Origin: Cyanobacteriota bacterium
Lineage (GTDB): Bacteria > Cyanobacteriota > Cyanobacteriia > PCC-6307 > Cyanobiaceae
Length of the DNA: 64,000 nucleotides
Direction of reading: 5' to 3'
Assembly: GCA_026389335.1 (NCBI GenBank)
Contig: JAPLIB010000089.1
Coordinates: 62,001-126,000 of the forward strand
Positions 51,434 through 63,960 of this stretch are shown here, piece by piece. Each line of letters starts with the position of its first letter. The stretch's first letter is position 1. Under the pieces are notes generated by a model that saw only the letters and a list, made by a program, of their open reading frames with translations, searched no databases and had not been told where the DNA came from. A program made the position numbers and the translations under genes.

Positions 51434-51778
51434 TCAGCTGAGCCTCAGCACCCTCGCGGCTTCTGCCGTGCTCCTGGCCACGCCGCCGTAGCCGCCGCAG
51501 CGTTCCACCAGGGCAAGGAACGATCTCTGCTCCTCCCGCAACCTTCCGCCCGGGGCCTTCACCTCGATGGCGGTGAACACCGCCAGGGTTTGGCCCAGGT
51601 GCTCCGGGCCGATCAGCACCTGGCGCAGCCCGATCAGGTCGCTGCTGCCCTTGCACAACCCGTAGGTCACCAGCCGGCCGCGTTCATCGCGCAGGGCGCC
51701 GACGTTGTTGCGCCACAGCCGCACTGGACCGGTACCCAGCTCCAGCCGGATTCGTTGCTGTAGCTCCTGCTCGCTCAT
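51434..51778 (-). CDS. VRR-NUC domain nuclease
   Basis: LRLWRNNVGALRD...GSSDLIGLRQ...AIEVKAPGGRLREEQRSFLALVERCGGYGGVARS. Confidence 0.85.
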   Translation of the reverse strand: MSEQELQQRIRLELGTGPVRLWRNNVGALRDERGRLVTYGLCKGSSDLIGLRQVLIGPEHLGQTLAVFTAIEVKAPGGRLREEQRSFLALVERCGGYGGVARSTAEAARVLRLS

Positions 51779-54063
51779 GCCACCCGGCTCCAGTGGCCCC
51801 GCGTCTGGCGTCCCGCCAGCACATGCCGTGCCCAGCCCTTGGGGTTTTTGAGGCCGCGCTTGGTGCCCAGCGCGATCAGATCCTCAAGGCTGCGGGCTTC
51901 TCCTTGCTCTCGCTTTTTTCTGCACCGGAGCTCCTGCTGGCTGATCTCCCGTAGCTCACCCTCCACCGTGACCAGCTTCTGGCGCTCCGGCCGGAAGGCA
52001 TGGCCGCACTCCGGGCAGAGGCTGAGCGTGCTGGCCATGGCACAGAAGCACTGCGGGCAGGTTTTGACCGACGGGGCCTTGGACTGCTCCCGCTTCTTGA
52101 TTCCATCGAGGCTCCACTCCTGCACATCGAGGTGGTGGCCCAGCCGCTCGATGTTGCCGACGTGATCGAGGATCACCGCCTCTTTGCCGGGCTGGGGCCT
52201 GAGGCAGCGGCCGATCATCTGCAGGTGCAGCGCCAGGCTCTGGGTGGGCCGCAGCAGCAGGCAGCCTCCCACCGAGGGCACATCCACCCCCTCACCGATG
52301 AGGCTGCAGCTGGTGAGCACCTGCAGCTCACCGCTTCTCAGCTGCTCCAGCAGCTGCCTGCGCGTTGCCGCATCCTTGGTTCCGTCGATGCTGGCCGCAT
52401 TTACGCCACGCTCGCTGAACGCCTCGGCCACCGCCTCGGCATGGGCGATTGAGCAGCAGAAGGCAATCGCCGTGCGGCCCGCCAGATGGCGCTGGTAATG
52501 GCTGACCGCATCGCCCAGGATGCGGCTGCCGCCCAGGGCACCGGCGGCCTGGCGCAGATCGAAATCCCCCATTCGTCGCCGCAGTCCCTTCGCCGAGAAG
52601 CCAATCGGAGGGGCATAAACCCGGGCCGGAGCCAGGTAGCCGTTGTCGGTCAGCCAGGCGGGCGTGGGGCCGAGCACCATGCTGGAGAACCAGGCACCAA
52701 GTGCCTGGCCGTCGCTGCGGCAGGGTGTCGCCGTGACGCCGAGCACCTTGGCGCTGCAGAAGTGTTTGAGCGCCTTCGCCCAGGTGCCGGCGCTGGTGTG
52801 GTGACAGTTGTGCACCAGGAGGCCAGCGGCAAAGTAGTTGTGGTGCTGCTCAACTTCGATGTTGTACATATAATTTCCCTCATGCAGCTCTCCAGATCCG
52901 CCTCGATCTGTTGATTCGTAAACCTCAACACGATCCACCCGATCGAGGCAAGGAACTCCTCCTTCTTCCTGTCCAGCATCTGGCGCTGGATCGTGCCATG
53001 GGATGGGCCATCCACTTCGATGCCGATCCGCAGCTCCTGATGGCCGATATCCAGCTTGTAGCAAGTCGGGTAGCCACTGCCGCGCGGCATCCCCGTTCGG
53101 ACCACCACTTCCATCGGCCAGCCCAGGGCATCCGCCAGTCGCTGCTGCTGCTTGGTGGGCCCACGGCCATTGCCGCCGCGTACCAGTGGCTGATGGTTGT
53201 TGCGCCGTAGCGTTGTGCTCATCTTCTCCCTGCACCCTGGCCGCTGCATCGGGTTGTTGTCGCGCATGCGTTGCGATGCGTACTGCCGATTGGTTCTCGC
53301 CATCACCACGGCTTTTTGCTGGCTCAAAGAGGCGCCGGAGCACTCTCGGCTGCAGTAAACCCGGCCTCTTGCTCTTAGTTGGTCGCGCTTGATCTTCGTA
53401 TTCAGAGCAACCGAGACTCCGCACCAATGGCACGGCGCAGAGTTCGTCGCCGGGACGCAGGATGCCAGCGGGGATGTAGCCATGGTTGACCGTAAAGAAC
53501 GGATGGGAGAGGGTGGTTTCGAGGCTTCGGCCGGAGGTTGTCGTGACACGCACCATCCAGCGGGGCATCGGATTGCAGAACAGTCGCTTGACGCGGCCGC
53601 TGCTGATCTGAGCGCTCTGGTGGTCAAAGCAGCTCACGACATCGCCGACCTGCAGGGTTTCGATCGGCCTGCCGTCAACCGGTGTTCCGGCTGGAAAGCA
53701 CTCATCAACCACCAGCAGCTGGAAGTGCTCCGGCTTGAGCAAATCCAGCCGGCGGGCCAGGGTGGAGACCGAGGCCACCTGCACCGGCGCCCGCAGGTTC
53801 ATCGAGCGGCCGGCGGCGATCAGGCCGTGCTCCACGCCAAGCGTGGCAAGGGAGCGGGAGGCCTGCTCCAGTAGCTCAACGCGGTGCACCAGCACGGCGA
53901 TCCGGTTGCCGCGGGCTGCCGCCTGCTGGGCGATGTGGCTGAACACCACCGTCTTGCCGCCACCGGTGGGCAGCACGAACAGCACGGCACGATGTCCCTC
54001 CATGAAGGCAAGCCGGACCCGCTGCACGGCCTCCAGCTGGTATGGACGCAGGGCGATGGTCAC
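51775..54063 (-). CDS. Superfamily 2 DExH helicase containing an in-frame intein
   Basis: LPTGGGKTVVFSHIA (Walker A); QLLVVDE|intein|CHHTSAGTWAKAL; SLIGEGVDVPSVGGCLLLRPTQSLALHLQMIGRCLRP (motif VI); C-terminal CPQCFCAM...CPECGHAF zinc motif. Confidence 0.88.
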   Translation of the reverse strand: MTIALRPYQLEAVQRVRLAFMEGHRAVLFVLPTGGGKTVVFSHIAQQAAARGNRIAVLVHRVELLEQASRSLATLGVEHGLIAAGRSMNLRAPVQVASVSTLARRLDLLKPEHFQLLVVDECFPAGTPVDGRPIETLQVGDVVSCFDHQSAQISSGRVKRLFCNPMPRWMVRVTTTSGRSLETTLSHPFFTVNHGYIPAGILRPGDELCAVPLVRSLGCSEYEDQARPTKSKRPGLLQPRVLRRLFEPAKSRGDGENQSAVRIATHARQQPDAAARVQGEDEHNATAQQPSATGTRRQWPWAHQAAAATGGCPGLADGSGGPNGDAARQWLPDLLQAGYRPSGAADRHRSGWPIPWHDPAPDAGQEEGGVPCLDRVDRVEVYESTDRGGSGELHEGNYMYNIEVEQHHNYFAAGLLVHNCHHTSAGTWAKALKHFCSAKVLGVTATPCRSDGQALGAWFSSMVLGPTPAWLTDNGYLAPARVYAPPIGFSAKGLRRRMGDFDLRQAAGALGGSRILGDAVSHYQRHLAGRTAIAFCCSIAHAEAVAEAFSERGVNAASIDGTKDAATRRQLLEQLRSGELQVLTSCSLIGEGVDVPSVGGCLLLRPTQSLALHLQMIGRCLRPQPGKEAVILDHVGNIERLGHHLDVQEWSLDGIKKREQSKAPSVKTCPQCFCAMASTLSLCPECGHAFRPERQKLVTVEGELREISQQELRCRKKREQGEARSLEDLIALGTKRGLKNPKGWARHVLAGRQTRGHWSRVA
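52650..53483 (-). CDS. Homing-endonuclease-like domain in a different (+1) frame inside the intein: zinc finger plus DUF559/Vsr-like PD-(D/E)XK
   Basis: CHWCGVSVALNTKIKRDQLRARGRVYCSREC...LDIGHQELRIGIEVDGPSHGTIQRQMLDRKKEEFLASIGWIVLRFTNQQI. In-frame ATG at 53483 possible; true start unknown. Confidence 0.7.
   Translation of the reverse strand: MATSPLASCVPATNSAPCHWCGVSVALNTKIKRDQLRARGRVYCSRECSGASLSQQKAVVMARTNRQYASQRMRDNNPMQRPGCREKMSTTLRRNNHQPLVRGGNGRGPTKQQQRLADALGWPMEVVVRTGMPRGSGYPTCYKLDIGHQELRIGIEVDGPSHGTIQRQMLDRKKEEFLASIGWIVLRFTNQQIEADLESCMREIICTTSKLSSTTTTLPLASWCTTVTTPAPAPGRRRSNTSAAPRCSASRRHPAAATARHLVPGSPAWCSAPRPPG
52807..53700 (-). other. Intein (894 nt, 298 codons in the helicase frame) in the DExH box
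   Basis: N-terminal Cys block CFPAGTPVDGRPIETLQVGDVVSCFD, block B-like RSLETTLSHPFFTVNHGYIPAGILRPGDEL, C-terminal NYMYNIEVEQHHNYFAAGLLVHN followed by +1 Cys. Confidence 0.9.
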
Positions 54064-57537: not shown

Positions 57538-58056
57538 ATGGCTGTCCAGCAAGCGCCACCTGTCGACGAGGTCATCGAGGCCCTGCGCTCTGCCCCGCTG
57601 GAGCAGGACGCCGATGGCCGGGCCTTCATCCCCTCGGCCGGCGTCGATCCCACCAGGCCCGTCGGCAAGGGCAATCCTCCCCGCCTGCGCCGTCGAGGCA
57701 AGGTGGCGCCCAGGCCGACGGCGATGGAGGTTGAGCGGCGCATCGCTGAGGCGCAGCTGTGGATCGCCCAGCGGATGCCCCTGCTGCGGATCTACGAAAA
57801 CGCCGGAGCCAGCTGGGGGGTCACCAATACCCGCACGGTCCGCTCCTATCTGGATGCCGCCCGCCAGCGGATGGTGGAAGACCTGATCAGCAACCGCCTC
57901 GAACACCAGGCCCAGCACATCTACGCCCTCTACGACTGCGCCCGCCGGGCGATGGATGCCGAGCAGTTTTCTGCGGCGGTGGGTGCCTTCCGGGTGATTG
58001 CGGAGATCGGCGGCATCCTGCGGGCCCCCCTCAAACCACCAGAAGCGAAAACCTGA
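57538..58056 (+). CDS. Terminase small subunit-like
   Basis: AEAQLWIAQRMPLLRIYENAGASWGVTNTRTVRSYLDAARQRMVEDL; overlaps large terminase start. Confidence 0.65.
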   Translation: MAVQQAPPVDEVIEALRSAPLEQDADGRAFIPSAGVDPTRPVGKGNPPRLRRRGKVAPRPTAMEVERRIAEAQLWIAQRMPLLRIYENAGASWGVTNTRTVRSYLDAARQRMVEDLISNRLEHQAQHIYALYDCARRAMDAEQFSAAVGAFRVIAEIGGILRAPLKPPEAKT

Positions 58057-59774
58057 TGGGCCGCATCGCCTCCACCCTGCAGCCACCGGCTGCTCTGCTG
58101 TCCAACCAGGGCGGCTTACTGCTGGACCCAGCCACCGACCGCTGGGCCGACTGGGGGCTGCTCGGGGTTGCCGATCCCGAACGGGCGTCAACCACCGGCC
58201 AGGCGCTGCAGTTCCGGGAGTTCATCACCGGGGCCTTCCCAGGCTTCCAGCTCACCCGCTTCTCGGAACTGCTGATCGATCTGCTGCAGCAAGTGGCCGA
58301 TGGCCAGCTGACACGGCTGATCGTCTGCTGTCCGCCACGGGCGGGGAAAAGTCAGCTGGTGTCGCGTCTGTTCCCGGCCTACTGGGTGAGCCGCCACCCG
58401 CAGCTGTTCTGCGCGATCGCTTCGTATTCCGCAGAGCTGGCCTATGCCCACTCCCGCGAGGCAAGGCACTACTACCGGATCACCGGTCATGCCCTCTCCA
58501 AGGATTCGGCGGCGGTTGGCAACTGGCTGACGCCCCAACGGGGCGGCTGCATCGCCGCCGGCGTGCGGGGCCCGTTCACCGGCAAGGGCTACAACCTCGG
58601 CATCATCGATGACCCCTACAAAGGCCCGGAAGACGCCAAGTCGGCGCTGCAGCGCGAGCGGCTGATCGACTGGCTCAAGAGCGTCTGGTTCACCCGCGCC
58701 GAACCGGGCCAGAGCAGCGATGGCCACTGGCTCCCGGCGGCGCAGGTGGTGGTGCAGACCCGCTGGGACCACCAGGACATGACCGCCTGGCTGCTGGCCC
58801 AGGAGGGCCAGGGGCCCGAGGGCGGGGAGCACCCCGAGCACTGGACCGTGCTCAACCTGCCCGCCATTGCCGAGCCGATCAGCATCGCGATGCCGATCCC
58901 GCCCACCTGCACGCGGGTGCCGGACTGGCGTCAACCCGGCGAGGCCCTCTGCCCCGAACGGGTGCCGCTGGCGGTGCTGCAACGCATCCGCACGCGCCTG
59001 GGCTCCTACTGGTGGAATGCCCTCTACCAGCAGCGGCCCAGCCCTGCGGAGGGTCTGCTGTTCCGCAAGGCCTGGATCCAGCCGCCCCTGCCGGTTGCCC
59101 TGGGCCAGCCCCGTCGCTATGCGCCTTTGGTGCTGAGCTGCGACCTGAGCTTCAAGGACGGCAAGGACAACGACGCCTGCGGCTTTGCGTTGCTGGGCCT
59201 GCTGGAGCCGCAGCGACACCTGGCGGTGGCTGCCCGCCGGCAGGGCCTGGCGCTGGCCGCCAACGCTGCAGGGGCTCAAGGATCGCCAAAGGGCGTGAAT
59301 TCCATTCACCCCCCTGCTGCCGCTCAGGACCCCTGGGCGGAGCTCCAGATCGAGGCCCTCTGGGCCCACCGGCAGCGGCTGGACCTGCCGGGGGTGATCA
59401 AGTTCCTGCTGGCCTCTCTTGCCTCGCTGGAACGCCAGGGCCTGCGGCCCCACGCCGTGCTGATTGAGGACGCCGCTAACGGCCCAGCGGTCTGCCAGCT
59501 GCTTAGGCGCCAGGTGCCTGGGTTGATCGCGATCCCGCCCAAAGGCAGCAAGGCCTCCCGTGCCCACGCCGTCGCCCCGCTGGTGGAAGCCGGCCAGGTG
59601 CGCTTCCACCGCCGATCCGAGTCTCTGATCGAGGAGCTGCTGGCCTTCTCGCCCCGCGGAGGCGTGGACGACCAGGTGGATGCTTTCTGCCAAGGGGTGC
59701 TCTGGATCGAGGCGCAGTACTGGCGCGGGCGGGGCCACAGCTCAGCGCCGCTGCCGATGGTGTTCTCCCGGTAA
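58056..59774 (+). CDS. Phage terminase large subunit
   Basis: LTRLIVCCPPRAGKSQLVSRLFPAYWVSRHPQLFCAIASYSAELA...NLGIIDDPYKGPEDA...VVQTRWDHQDM; 573-codon ORF from ATG 58056. Confidence 0.93.
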   Translation: MGRIASTLQPPAALLSNQGGLLLDPATDRWADWGLLGVADPERASTTGQALQFREFITGAFPGFQLTRFSELLIDLLQQVADGQLTRLIVCCPPRAGKSQLVSRLFPAYWVSRHPQLFCAIASYSAELAYAHSREARHYYRITGHALSKDSAAVGNWLTPQRGGCIAAGVRGPFTGKGYNLGIIDDPYKGPEDAKSALQRERLIDWLKSVWFTRAEPGQSSDGHWLPAAQVVVQTRWDHQDMTAWLLAQEGQGPEGGEHPEHWTVLNLPAIAEPISIAMPIPPTCTRVPDWRQPGEALCPERVPLAVLQRIRTRLGSYWWNALYQQRPSPAEGLLFRKAWIQPPLPVALGQPRRYAPLVLSCDLSFKDGKDNDACGFALLGLLEPQRHLAVAARRQGLALAANAAGAQGSPKGVNSIHPPAAAQDPWAELQIEALWAHRQRLDLPGVIKFLLASLASLERQGLRPHAVLIEDAANGPAVCQLLRRQVPGLIAIPPKGSKASRAHAVAPLVEAGQVRFHRRSESLIEELLAFSPRGGVDDQVDAFCQGVLWIEAQYWRGRGHSSAPLPMVFSR

Positions 59775-59777
59775 GCC

Positions 59778-60287
59778 ATGGATCAGCAACCCAAACCGCA
59801 GGCCACAACGCCGCATCGGCCCCAGACCCACGCCGTCGCCACACCGGCCCGCCCTCGGCGCCATCGGCCGGTGAATCCCCATGCGGCGGCCAATGCCCTG
59901 GCCCTGCAGCACCAGGACATCGCCGAACGTGTGGCGGCCAACATCTCCAGGCGCACCGGACACCCTCGGGAGGATCTGCATCAGATCGCCATGCTCGGCA
60001 TCCTGCAGGCCGCCCGCCGCTACTCACCGGAGCGGGGATCCTTTCGGCCCTATGCCCGCACCTATGCCAACGGCGAGGTGTATCACTACCTCCGCGACAA
60101 GGGTTTCCTGATCAAGGTGCCGGCCAGCTGGCGGGAGTTGCATGCGCGGGGGCAGAAGTTGCTCAGGTTGGGTACGCCAGCGGCGGAGGTGCCGGGGCGG
60201 TTGGGGGTCAGTGCGGAGCGGTGGAGGGAGATCGTGGGGGCTTGTAGTCAGCGGGTGGTGGCGATGGAAGTTGCTGAGCAGGAGTGA
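59778..60287 (+). CDS. Sigma-70-family-like factor (region 2 / partial region 3)
   Basis: REDLHQIAMLGILQAARRYSPERGSFRPYARTYANGEVYHYLRDKGFLIKVPASWRELHARGQKL. Confidence 0.8.
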   Translation: MDQQPKPQATTPHRPQTHAVATPARPRRHRPVNPHAAANALALQHQDIAERVAANISRRTGHPREDLHQIAMLGILQAARRYSPERGSFRPYARTYANGEVYHYLRDKGFLIKVPASWRELHARGQKLLRLGTPAAEVPGRLGVSAERWREIVGACSQRVVAMEVAEQE

Positions 60288-60502: not shown

Positions 60503-60727
60503 CTAAAGGGCATCGGCATCCTTGGCAAAAGGGCCATCATCAAGACGTGAAATTGCAGATGATGAATGATCGGCATTGAACATCAAGTTAAGATTTTCAA
60601 GCTTCTTCGTCTGATAGTCTTCGTTGGAATTCAGGCGAACCTCCGTTGCGCCGCTTTCAAGTGCAAATTTGAATGCCCCCAAAGCTGCGTCTACATCTTT
60701 GGTGTAGACGTCTACATATACTTTCAT
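60503..60727 (-). CDS. Small hypothetical cargo ORF
   Basis: 74 aa MKVYVDVYTKDVDAALGAFKFALESGATEVRLNSNEDYQTKKLENLNLMFNADHSSSAISRLDDGPFAKDADAL. Confidence 0.5.
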   Translation of the reverse strand: MKVYVDVYTKDVDAALGAFKFALESGATEVRLNSNEDYQTKKLENLNLMFNADHSSSAISRLDDGPFAKDADAL

Positions 60728-60935
60728 GGTTTTGCTCTTGATTGGGAAGAGGGGTTTTGTTGTTTTTGTTGCATGATGGTGATTGGGCAGTCCGCAGAAG
60801 TTGTTGCCCTATGGCATTTGCCGCTTAAACCGCCGATCGCCTCACCCCATGGCGACAAAAATTCATTATACGAGTACCACCGCAACTCCTTGCCTCTTCG
60901 CCATGGTTTGTTACGCAGTCTGGACGCCCCGGGGT

Positions 60936-61045
60936 TCAAAGAAGGTCAGCGGGGCTGCGCACCCCTGATGGTCCTCGACCCATCACATGGATACAATTCA
61001 TAGCGGTCTCCACATCGCTGTGCCCCAGCCAGCAGCGGCGTTGAG
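60936..61045 (-). pseudogene. Integron-integrase-like tyrosine recombinase, C-terminal remnant (copy A)
   Basis: GWLGHSDVETAMNCIHVMGRGPSGVRSPADLL*. Confidence 0.7.
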
Positions 61046-61105
61046 CGGTGGCGGGAGATTGTGGTGGCTTGTAGTCAGCGGGTGGCGTGGGAGGTGGATG
61101 GTTGA
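61044..61105 (+). repeat. Diverged duplicate of the sigma-like gene 3' end
   Basis: ttgagcggtggcgggagattgtggtggcttgtagtcagcgggtgg versus ggagcggtggagggagatcgtgggggcttgtagtcagcgggtggtgg near 60215-60260. Confidence 0.7.
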
Positions 61106-61190
61106 ACTCTGCCCCTGAGTGGCAGACGGTGTGCTTCTGGTGGCGGAACAGAGCTTGCGGTGGCCTGTCCACTCAAGGGGCTTGTTAGGC
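61101..61190. other. attC-like integron recombination site
   Basis: + strand GTTGAAC-TCT-GCCCCTGAGTGG-(46 nt)-CCACTCAAGGGGC-TT-GTTAGGC; inner arms complementary with one extra base; minus-strand GCCTAAC begins 1 nt after the TIR-like gene stop. Confidence 0.65.
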
Positions 61191-61191
61191 A

Positions 61192-61977
61192 TCAACGCAG
61201 GAAGCCTATTCGCTCAAAATACTCAACGACAGCGTCAGATATTTGTTGCTTCAGAGTTGCTGGGCGATCGTAGTCAATCCGCCGATTCTGCGCAAAGTCA
61301 AACGGGGTAGAATCATTCCCGAGCTCAGCAGAGCGGCTCTTTTTGATCATCAACACTTGATCTGCTCTCTTTCTGCTGAGAGCATACCCAAGTTCAAATA
61401 CAACATTCGCATTTGGATAGCACTTTCCGGCCTGCTCGTTGGCATCTACTCTGCTTACATTGGTAATATCAAAAATCGCCATTAGGCTTCGGTCGATATT
61501 CGCCTTAATCGCTTCGACGATATTGCCAGCACCGTCTTCCGGCCTCGTGGATTCGACTGCAATTACTTGGGACTTTGGATTACGACTGTTGATTATATCT
61601 ACCGCCGAGTTGATTCCCTCTCGGATGTGACCGCGCGAGGGATTGTAGTCGCTTTGCCAGCTATAGAATATCCAGGGACGGTATCTCGCTGGCAAATTTG
61701 ACTTCTCAAAGTAGAATTCACTTTCGACAAGGTCGATATTGGCTAGTTTGTACAGGCCGGAGCCTTCAATATAGAAGATGACAACGCCTGATATTAAGTG
61801 GAGCTGATACCAGGCGGAACTCTCAATCGCAGCACGATCGGTCAGGCAATATGCACGGTATCCGGCCTTCAGGATGCTTTTCTTTACAAGGTCTAGCGTG
61901 TGCGGCTGTGCCTCGACTTGTGCAACATCATATATACTATCCCCAACGAACCAGCATTTAACCCGAGTGATTTGCAT
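61192..61977 (-). CDS. TIR-like nucleotide-binding-fold protein, candidate defence effector in an integron-type cassette
   Basis: RPWIFYSWQSDYNPSRGHIREGINSAVDII...NANVVFELGYALSRKRADQVLMIKKS...TPFDFAQNRRIDYD; ~100-aa N-terminal domain of unknown type. GTTAGGC 16 nt before the ATG. Confidence 0.75.
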   Translation of the reverse strand: MQITRVKCWFVGDSIYDVAQVEAQPHTLDLVKKSILKAGYRAYCLTDRAAIESSAWYQLHLISGVVIFYIEGSGLYKLANIDLVESEFYFEKSNLPARYRPWIFYSWQSDYNPSRGHIREGINSAVDIINSRNPKSQVIAVESTRPEDGAGNIVEAIKANIDRSLMAIFDITNVSRVDANEQAGKCYPNANVVFELGYALSRKRADQVLMIKKSRSAELGNDSTPFDFAQNRRIDYDRPATLKQQISDAVVEYFERIGFLR

Positions 61978-62154
61978 GATTGTGTCCTTTAGTGCCTAAC
62001 ACTCATTCGGTGGTCCATAGAAGCTGCGGTATGCCGGCTCTTTGCCGCATAGGCTACCTCTCCTTGCCTCCTCTCTCAGGTTCCAACCAGCTGGAGCAAG
62101 ACATCTCGGGTATCGCCATCTGCCTCATGGATTGTTACGTGATCCGCAGAAGAT

Positions 62155-62345
62155 CCCTGCGTTCCTCAGGGCAGGTCAGTGGGGCTTCGTACCCCAGATG
62201 GACCTCTGTTCTACAAATGGGTGTAGACCATGGTGGTTTTCACATCGCTGTGGCCGAGCAGTTCCTGAATCGTGCGGATGTCGGCGCCCTGTTCCAATAG
62301 ATGCTTGGCGAATGAATGGCGGCAGGTGTGGCAGGCCGCCGGTTT
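62155..62345 (-). pseudogene. Integron-integrase-like tyrosine recombinase, C-terminal remnant with nonsense codon (copy B)
   Basis: [60 protein letters not shown]. Confidence 0.75.
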
Positions 62346-62431
62346 GCTGATCCCCGCAGCCACCCCATCAACGCACTGGGGGCCCCGCTGAATCCTTCGC
62401 TGGCAACAGCCAGCAGTCATGCCAAAGCCTC

Positions 62432-63960
62432 GTGCCCCCAGGCCCTCCCCTTGTAGCGAATGCGCCTTATAACCCTTGGCGCCAGCACCCAACCCTGACC
62501 GCCCTTGGGCCCTCCCTGCGGATCACCGCCGACTGCTGGGCCCTGCTCGCCGCCCCTGACGGCAGCAGCCGCAAGGAGCACTACCTCCCCAAGGGCGAGC
62601 GTGAACCGGACACCGCTTACCGCAAACGCTTGGATGCTGCCCGCCCGTCGGGATTTTTCCGGGACGCCCTGCGCACCTACGCCGGGATGCTCAGCCGGGG
62701 CAGCTGGATCAGCCTCCCGGCCAGCCTGAGCTCGGTTCTGACTGACGTCGACGGCCGAGGCACGGACCTTGGCGTGTTCCTGGCCGCTGTCGACCTGCTG
62801 GTCCTCCGCGATGGCGCCGCCCTGGTGCTGGTGCTCCCCCCAGAGCACAGCTGGCCCAGTGAGGGCGACCGCCAGGAGGCCCTACGCCGCGGCGATCGCC
62901 TGTCTCTGCCGCGTCTTCAGTTGGTCCCCAGGGCCAACTGCCTGAACTGGGAGCTGCCCGTCTCCTACGGCCTCCCTGGCCGGATCGTCTGGAGGGAGCC
63001 GGTCAACCGGCCCATCAGTGCTGAACCGACCGGGCCGGAAGGAGCAATCACCGAGCAGATCACCGCCCTGCTGGGCGATGCCGACGCCCCCGACCGCTGG
63101 CACTACCGCAGTCTGCAGCTGCTCACCACCGGCGACGCCACCAAGGCTGGGACCGCCAGGGGCGGGGCCGTCAGGGGCGGGGCCGTCACCGGCCTGCAGC
63201 TGGCGGCATCAGCCGGCTACCGGCCTGCTGGTACACCTCCGATGGCTCCGCCTTCGGGGATGGGGATCTGCCGCACCTGGGCCTGGCGCACCAGTACCTC
63301 AACCACTTCCGCTGCAAGAGCGAATACGAGGAGCTGCTGAGCCGTACGGCTCTTCCAGTGGGGGTACGCAAGGGGATGGTGGATGCCATGGGCAACAGCC
63401 AGGCCGGCCCCGTCGTGCTGGGGCCGAACACCTGCATGGACCTGCCAGCTGATGCGTCCTTCGAGTTCGTGGAGATCCGGGCCCGCTCCTTGGCGGAGCA
63501 CCGCGCCTGGCTGCAGATCCTTGACGACACCATGCGTCGTGATGCCCTGATCCCCTCCCAGAACCGGGGCGCGGCCCGCACCGAGATGGAGATCAGCCTC
63601 ACCGCCTCCCAGAGCTATGCGCTGCTACAGGCCATGGCGATCCAGAAGGCCTCGCTCTTCTCCACCCTCCTGCAGCACTGGTGCGCCCTGACGGGCGAAC
63701 CCCTCACCCCCGGTGCCGGCTTGCAGGTGACGGTGAGCCCGCTCACCCCGCCGATCCAGCCGCAGCCCCAGGTGAAGGAATGGATCGAGCTCTTCGACAA
63801 GGGTGTGATCAGCCGGGAGGAGCTGCGTCACCAGCTGGCCCTTGCCACGGCGAACGCGATCAGCAGCCCGACCCTCGATGACAGCCCGGCCACCAGGGCC
63901 GGGGAGAGGCGCGATGCGCCCATCGATCAAGCGGCAGCTGCTCAGCCCCCGATGGACTGA
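62432..63960 (+). pseudogene. Phage portal / DUF4055-like protein, interrupted by an apparent frameshift near 63229
   Basis: First frame ...RWHYRSLQLLTTGDATKAG...AGYRPAG; continuing in another frame WYTSDGSAFGDGDLPHLGLAHQYLNHFRCKSEYEELLSRTALPVGVRKGMVDAMGNS...PQPQVKEWIELFDKGVISREELRHQL. Confidence 0.6.

Follow-up and report, generated by a model that had tools for sequence, protein, structure and literature searches.

Most work on integrons has been done in Proteobacteria, where they are seen as devices of resistance or of chromosomal storage. Integron parts (intI, attI, attC, and cassettes) have been described inside phage genomes, some of them with attC sites of the host type (Qi et al. 2023, PMC9892861). 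Integrons of reverse layout are known from Treponema, and their integrase clusters with one from Synechococcus sp. (PMC3607928). Sedentary chromosomal integrons have been described as biobanks of defence genes (Darracq et al. 2025; Getz et al.; reviewed in PMC12409362). For the TIR effectors of the CAP12/Pycsar type, the roles of individual residues, among them N80 and the catalytic E84, were taken from work on SfSTING (PMC9402430). Our search of the open-access literature recovered no work on the integrons of Cyanobium or of freshwater Synechococcus.

The locus reported here lies in a 64,000-nucleotide stretch of DNA (the window; all coordinates without a contig or locus name refer to it) of a Cyanobiaceae genome (contig JAPLIB010000089.1). 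Nine matches to phycobilisome families show that this genome, that of a picocyanobacterium, is cyanobacterial.

Prophage context, cassette boundaries, and attC

The original prediction, made from the letters of the window, had placed the cassette in phage cargo, and its neighbours bear this out. To its left are the genes for the terminase large subunit (58056-59774, plus strand; PHROG 38; 88% to the homologue at locus L011) and for a small sigma-70 region 2 protein (59778-60287, plus strand; PF04542), the latter forming the left border of the cargo gap. The right border is formed by the portal gene (62456-63921, plus strand; PHROG 145), which was recovered by tblastn as two pieces in different frames. 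The window prophage is siphophage-like, and it is degenerate because its portal gene is frameshifted. The same order of genes (terminase, small sigma-like protein, variable gap, portal) defines a prophage family that is present in several copies in this genome and was found in 19 of the 42 genomes of the genus. The terminase of this family is 36-38% identical to the terminases of the Synechococcus phages S-CRES1-3 and S-CBS2, and the same portal was found on nine viral contigs. Elsewhere in the prophage, a DNA helicase gene (51775-54063, minus strand) is split by an intein (PF14890), and a 325-aa ORF (52650-53627, minus strand) overlaps this intein-bearing gene in another frame.

The cargo gap holds an integron gene cassette of 893 bp (61107-61999, minus strand), with G^TT cut sites at both ends (core GTTAGGC at 62000-61994 and the G of attC at 61107). 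Between the GTTRRRY core and attC, the cassette contains one ORF (61192-61977, minus strand), which encodes a 261-aa protein with an N-terminal domain (residues about 1-100) and a TIR-like domain. Read along the minus strand, the locus consists in turn of GAATGAGTG^TTAGGC, 16 nt, the ORF from ATG to TGA, a single T, GCCTAAC, the inner arms with one extra T, and GAG^TTCAAC. The individual elements named in the original prediction were all recovered, i.e., GTTAGGC 16 nt upstream of the ATG, GCCTAAC at 61190-61184, 1 nt after the stop codon, and the inner arms GCCCCTTGAGTGG and CCACTCAGGGGC, which pair except for one extra base, a T. The outer R' box GTTCAAC (61107-61101) differs from GTTRRRY by one base, as had also been noted. 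This deviation is explained by recombination at G^TT: because the boxes GCCTAAC and GTTAGGC of the excised circle are exact reverse complements, the letters to the right of the cut represent target sequence. The arrangement stands well above chance, since none of the other ORFs among the 180 in the window that reach 100 aa is bounded by a core on either side. A promoter scan detected nothing promoter-like directly upstream of it.

The attC site (61101-61190, minus strand) was searched for with a covariance model (R1), as had been suggested together with the prediction. To train R1, ten attC sites were drawn from integrons in other members of the genus, with the window site left out. The ten-site alignment had 37 cells with compensatory changes, compared to 10.4 in shuffles, and the support for the shared structure dropped when it was slid by one column. 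R1 recovered the window site with 43.6 bits and an E of 8.4e-8 in 443 kb. The E of the same site was 7.7e-7 across the whole genome and, when the local stretch was searched unfiltered, 5.9e-10; the runner-up in this stretch reached 5.9 bits. The site has R''/R' boxes, paired L''/L' arms, and an extrahelical base, and it can be aligned by blastn with attC sites of the host integrons L044, L048, and L049. The extra T in its L'' arm occupies a position that is common to other attC sites. The ORF and its attC are a true integron gene cassette.

Integrase remnant, attI, and the sigma-portal gap

The original prediction gave the feature as 61101-62000. The cassette is indeed located there, but this extent is too short, since attI and a truncated integron integrase continue to about 62363. 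The integrase remnant (62175-62363, minus strand; TIGR02249, 106 bits) comprises residues 251-313, i.e., the C-terminal 63 residues, with one in-frame TAG. The attI region (about 61994-62180, minus strand) is conserved up to the core G, and the cassette starts at G^TT. Three other prophages (C91 of this genome, G226:C81, and G148:C79) have the attI stretch at 73-86% identity, and their divergence begins exactly past the core G. In several host integrons, the core is located 175-221 nt 3' of intI, and at ten host intI loci every attC match was 3' of intI and on the intI strand. The window remnant has this reverse layout, with the cassette 3' of intI and on the same strand. The proposal of an integron cassette inside a prophage therefore stands, but the insertion does not stand alone. 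The cassette is in first position in an integron remnant of reverse orientation, whose parts (delta-intI, attI, cassette, and attC) are all on the minus strand. Insertion at a secondary, non-integron site had been considered and was dropped after the discovery of attI and delta-intI. Because no intact intI over the TIGR02249 cut-off was found in this genome, the cassette is probably immobile here now.

A second, older integrase tail was matched by TIGR02249 at 60942-61031 (minus strand) and located at 60945-61028 by tblastn (aa 284-311) and by the alignment with integron remnant A; it is followed by a degenerate attI that extends to about 60728. The 3' end of the sigma-like gene occurs a second time at 61043-61096 (plus strand; tblastn aa 147-165, 84%), where it abuts the attC of the cassette. 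Two integron units are thus arranged in tandem, with the older remnant (60728-61030, minus strand) flanked by the complete sigma-like gene on one side and by the repeated 3' end on the other. A 74-aa ORF beside the older remnant (60503-60727, minus strand) may be an old cassette gene.

In the host genus, intI was present in 38 of 42 genomes (in 28 of them over the curated cut-off) and attC in all 42. Within the family, intI was found in 11 of 59 genera. The genome studied here also has attC sites outside the examined prophage copies, at C90:17894-17979 (L114) and C133:1879-1968 (L117).

The position of the cassette recurs across the prophage family. In a set of 27 prophage and viral loci, two pairs of which have identical cargo, all 13 attC sites (E<0.01) were located in the gap between the sigma-like and portal genes, which accounts for 17% of the bases. 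The nominal p for this distribution is 1e-10, which is not a true probability because the loci are related. The virion genes are on one strand and all 13 sites on the other; the C91 site is near-palindromic and matches both strands. This site (L010, 9326-9387) is a 62-bp attC (GCCTAACATGCGCATTCAGCGG...) that forms an almost perfect palindrome. The last attC directly adjoins the end of the sigma-like gene in several prophage copies. Four prophages, of which two (that of the window among them) are in this genome and two elsewhere, share the truncation of intI against the portal-side sequence as well as a common attI, and have different first cassettes. The short start shared by the first cassettes of G148:C79 and the host integron L048 was not used, as only about 28 bp are common. 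Other prophages of the family have attC at this place, with different genes.

Because gap proteins of other members match defence-like families, the gap looks like a defence hotspot, which appears to be filled only partly through cassettes. The matches are to a type IIG restriction enzyme and PDC-S31 at L086, FRG/PDC-S15 at L085, SAVED-HNH-like endonucleases at L099, and, weakly, a HEPN family at L011. A DrmD-like match (L083:4961-5860) was left out of the count because it and the adjacent ORF of about 500 aa may be an IS21-type transposase pair. The fullest integron of the prophage family is that of L086 (G163:C38, 2339-8207). It has three attC sites, an MmeI-like type IIG restriction enzyme, the PDC-S31 candidate defence gene, attI-like pieces, and an integrase that covers residues 56-311 with one stop.

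The TIR-like protein and its relatives

The cassette protein had been described as TIR-like, and PF10137 (CAP12/Pycsar TIR) matched its residues 139-215 with 29.7 bits, above the Pfam cut-off of 24.7. The protein shares the FYSWQSD and N.NV.FELGYA motifs with plasmid TIR proteins, and Glu195 is invariant in nine relatives. A profile match to SfSTING/Cap12 (7UN8) was marginal (E 0.66), with NVVFE aligned. This weak match places Asn191 and Glu195 on N80 and the catalytic E84 of SfSTING, if we infer an offset of 8 residues between the 7UN8 chain and the published numbering. Weak profile similarity was also found to 2-deoxyribosyltransferase, and the match in PADLOC was weak (E 0.0085). The AlphaFold model, built from only two sequences (window and L009), had a pLDDT of 40.5, too low for the model to be of use. 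A phmmer search against the PDB gave no match, and profile searches gave only marginal ones. No STING or cyclic-nucleotide-binding domain was recognised in the protein, and no nucleotide cyclase was found in the one-ORF cassette or among the neighbouring prophage proteins scanned.

Searches of phage records, viral contigs, and 200 other genomes of the family recovered no relative of this protein, and none of those in plasmids covered 80% of the query. For two TIR relatives on plasmids, H1 and H2, the genes nearby include those of an Abi family, AbiE, and restriction. The closest relative is a protein from a Micavibrio MAG, which is 60% identical over the full length and keeps FYSWQSD. The neighbours of its gene are a helicase-like and an HNH-like ORF (identified by eye), and the covariance model detected no attC at this locus.

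The N-terminal domain, which the original prediction could not place, has no match in Pfam, but it is shared with the Micavibrio protein and with a chromosomal family of cyanobacteria. In this family of about 256-aa proteins, it is conserved together with the TIR-like half. Of 386 genomes sampled across the phylum, 86 had a match, this genome included. The homologues (L123-L141 and others) occur in many cyanobacteria of other families, outside picocyanobacteria, and are Pfam-orphans. They have lost FYSWQSD, and the one that was scanned gave no PF10137 match. A common neighbouring gene, presumably that of an MltA-like murein transglycosylase, is present at 9 of 19 homologue loci. As a best guess from sequence comparison, which we hold with slightly more belief than doubt, the cassette protein would be an NADase or abortive anti-phage effector.

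Proposed cassette exchange, alternatives, and comparison with known systems

The attC, attI, truncated integrase, cassette boundaries, prophage context, and recurrence in related prophages are established computationally. The best explanation of the whole, which we regard as quite probable, is a first-position cassette at the attI of a prophage integron remnant that was exchanged in trans and encodes a TIR-like effector. In this mechanism, the integrase of a host integron or of another phage would have acted in trans, cutting at G^TT and exchanging the cassettes once the phage lineage no longer had an intI of its own, and attI would serve as a socket for phage cargo. This is the simplest reading because the intI truncation is shared but the first cassettes differ. 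Integrases of this kind are abundant, as the counts of intI for the genus show. Such loading in trans appears likely from the comparison of the prophages, but homologous recombination between phages could account for this step instead. In the most likely mode of action, the N-terminal domain would sense infection or drive assembly, and the TIR domain would hydrolyse or cyclise NAD+ and stop phage growth. A lysogen with this effector would exclude competing phages.

The attC-like structure could only with very small probability be a chance inverted repeat or terminator next to an ORF that is ordinary phage cargo. Folding of the single site is only moderately better than that of shuffles (z -1.9 and -2.2), which fits such an origin, but the E of 8e-8 came from a model built without this site, the site is homologous to host attC sites, and a matching attI and intI remnant adjoin it. 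The covariance search in effect already refutes this origin. It is also conceivable, and in our judgement unlikely, that the end of a host chromosomal integron was taken up passively once, and that the later differences are due to homologous recombination and deletion and not to integrase activity in the prophage. All five prophage intI copies seen are degenerate, the genome is without an intact intI, and the tandem remnants and duplicated 3' ends of the sigma-like gene indicate homologous or illegitimate rearrangement at this place. What disfavours passive uptake is that four prophages with one and the same intI truncation are conserved exactly to G^TT and then have different cassettes, because homologous recombination is unlikely to break at G^TT every time.

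A non-defence role is possible, as the chromosomal homologues resemble ordinary resident genes. The TIR-like protein would then act not as a defence effector but, in the manner of these homologues, as an enzyme related to nucleotides or NAD that serves the resident cell, a reading to which we assign an appreciable but minor probability. Several results are consistent with it: 86 of the 386 cyanobacterial genomes have a full-length homologue of equal size, 9 of 19 homologues share a neighbouring gene, the PADLOC match is weak, and there is weak profile similarity to a 2-deoxyribosyltransferase. This reading is opposed by the location in a gap amid defence-like cargo, by the plasmid relatives H1 and H2 near Abi family, AbiE, and restriction genes, and by the FYSWQSD motif, which the cassette and Micavibrio proteins keep but the chromosomal homologues lack, the scanned one also being without a PF10137 match.

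In this cyanobacterial prophage lineage, two virion genes enclose a docking site for integron cassettes, which differ from phage to phage and are in several cases defence-like. If this site is loaded by host integrases, it would give defence genes a direct path by which bacterial gene libraries and phages exchange them. More broadly, a temperate picocyanobacterial phage family may maintain, between its sigma-like and portal genes, an integrase-less attI/attC socket that is reloaded in trans with defence cassettes, so that the host integron pool would be the source of an arsenal against competitors; we propose this tentatively and with slightly more doubt than belief. The locus makes two questions testable, namely, whether phages use a host integron integrase in trans, and what role the protein family with the cyanobacterial N-terminal domain and TIR-like domain has.

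The phage integrons and CALINs that PMC9892861 describes for Vibrio, Shewanella, P1, and virulent phages are individual cases, whereas here, one cyanobacterial prophage family has repeated cassettes at a fixed place and a shared intI truncation. As in the reverse-layout chromosomal integrons (PMC3607928), the cassettes are 3' of intI on the same strand; unlike in those, the integrase is a 63-residue remnant inside a prophage. The locus resembles the biobank integrons (PMC12409362) in its small cassette-borne gene in first position, with a defence role that is predicted here, and differs from them by its location in a prophage and in a cyanobacterium. The protein shares with the CAP12/Pycsar TIR effectors (PF10137; SfSTING, PMC9402430) the PF10137 match and the alignment of N191/E195 with N80/E84, but its cassette has no cyclase, and its N-terminal domain is a different one, that of the cyanobacterial chromosomal family. 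Phage-borne integrons (PMC9892861) and integron defence cassettes (PMC12409362) are known separately; their combination at this locus is new, as are the two-domain TIR protein and a cassette socket that recurs within one family of cyanobacterial prophages.
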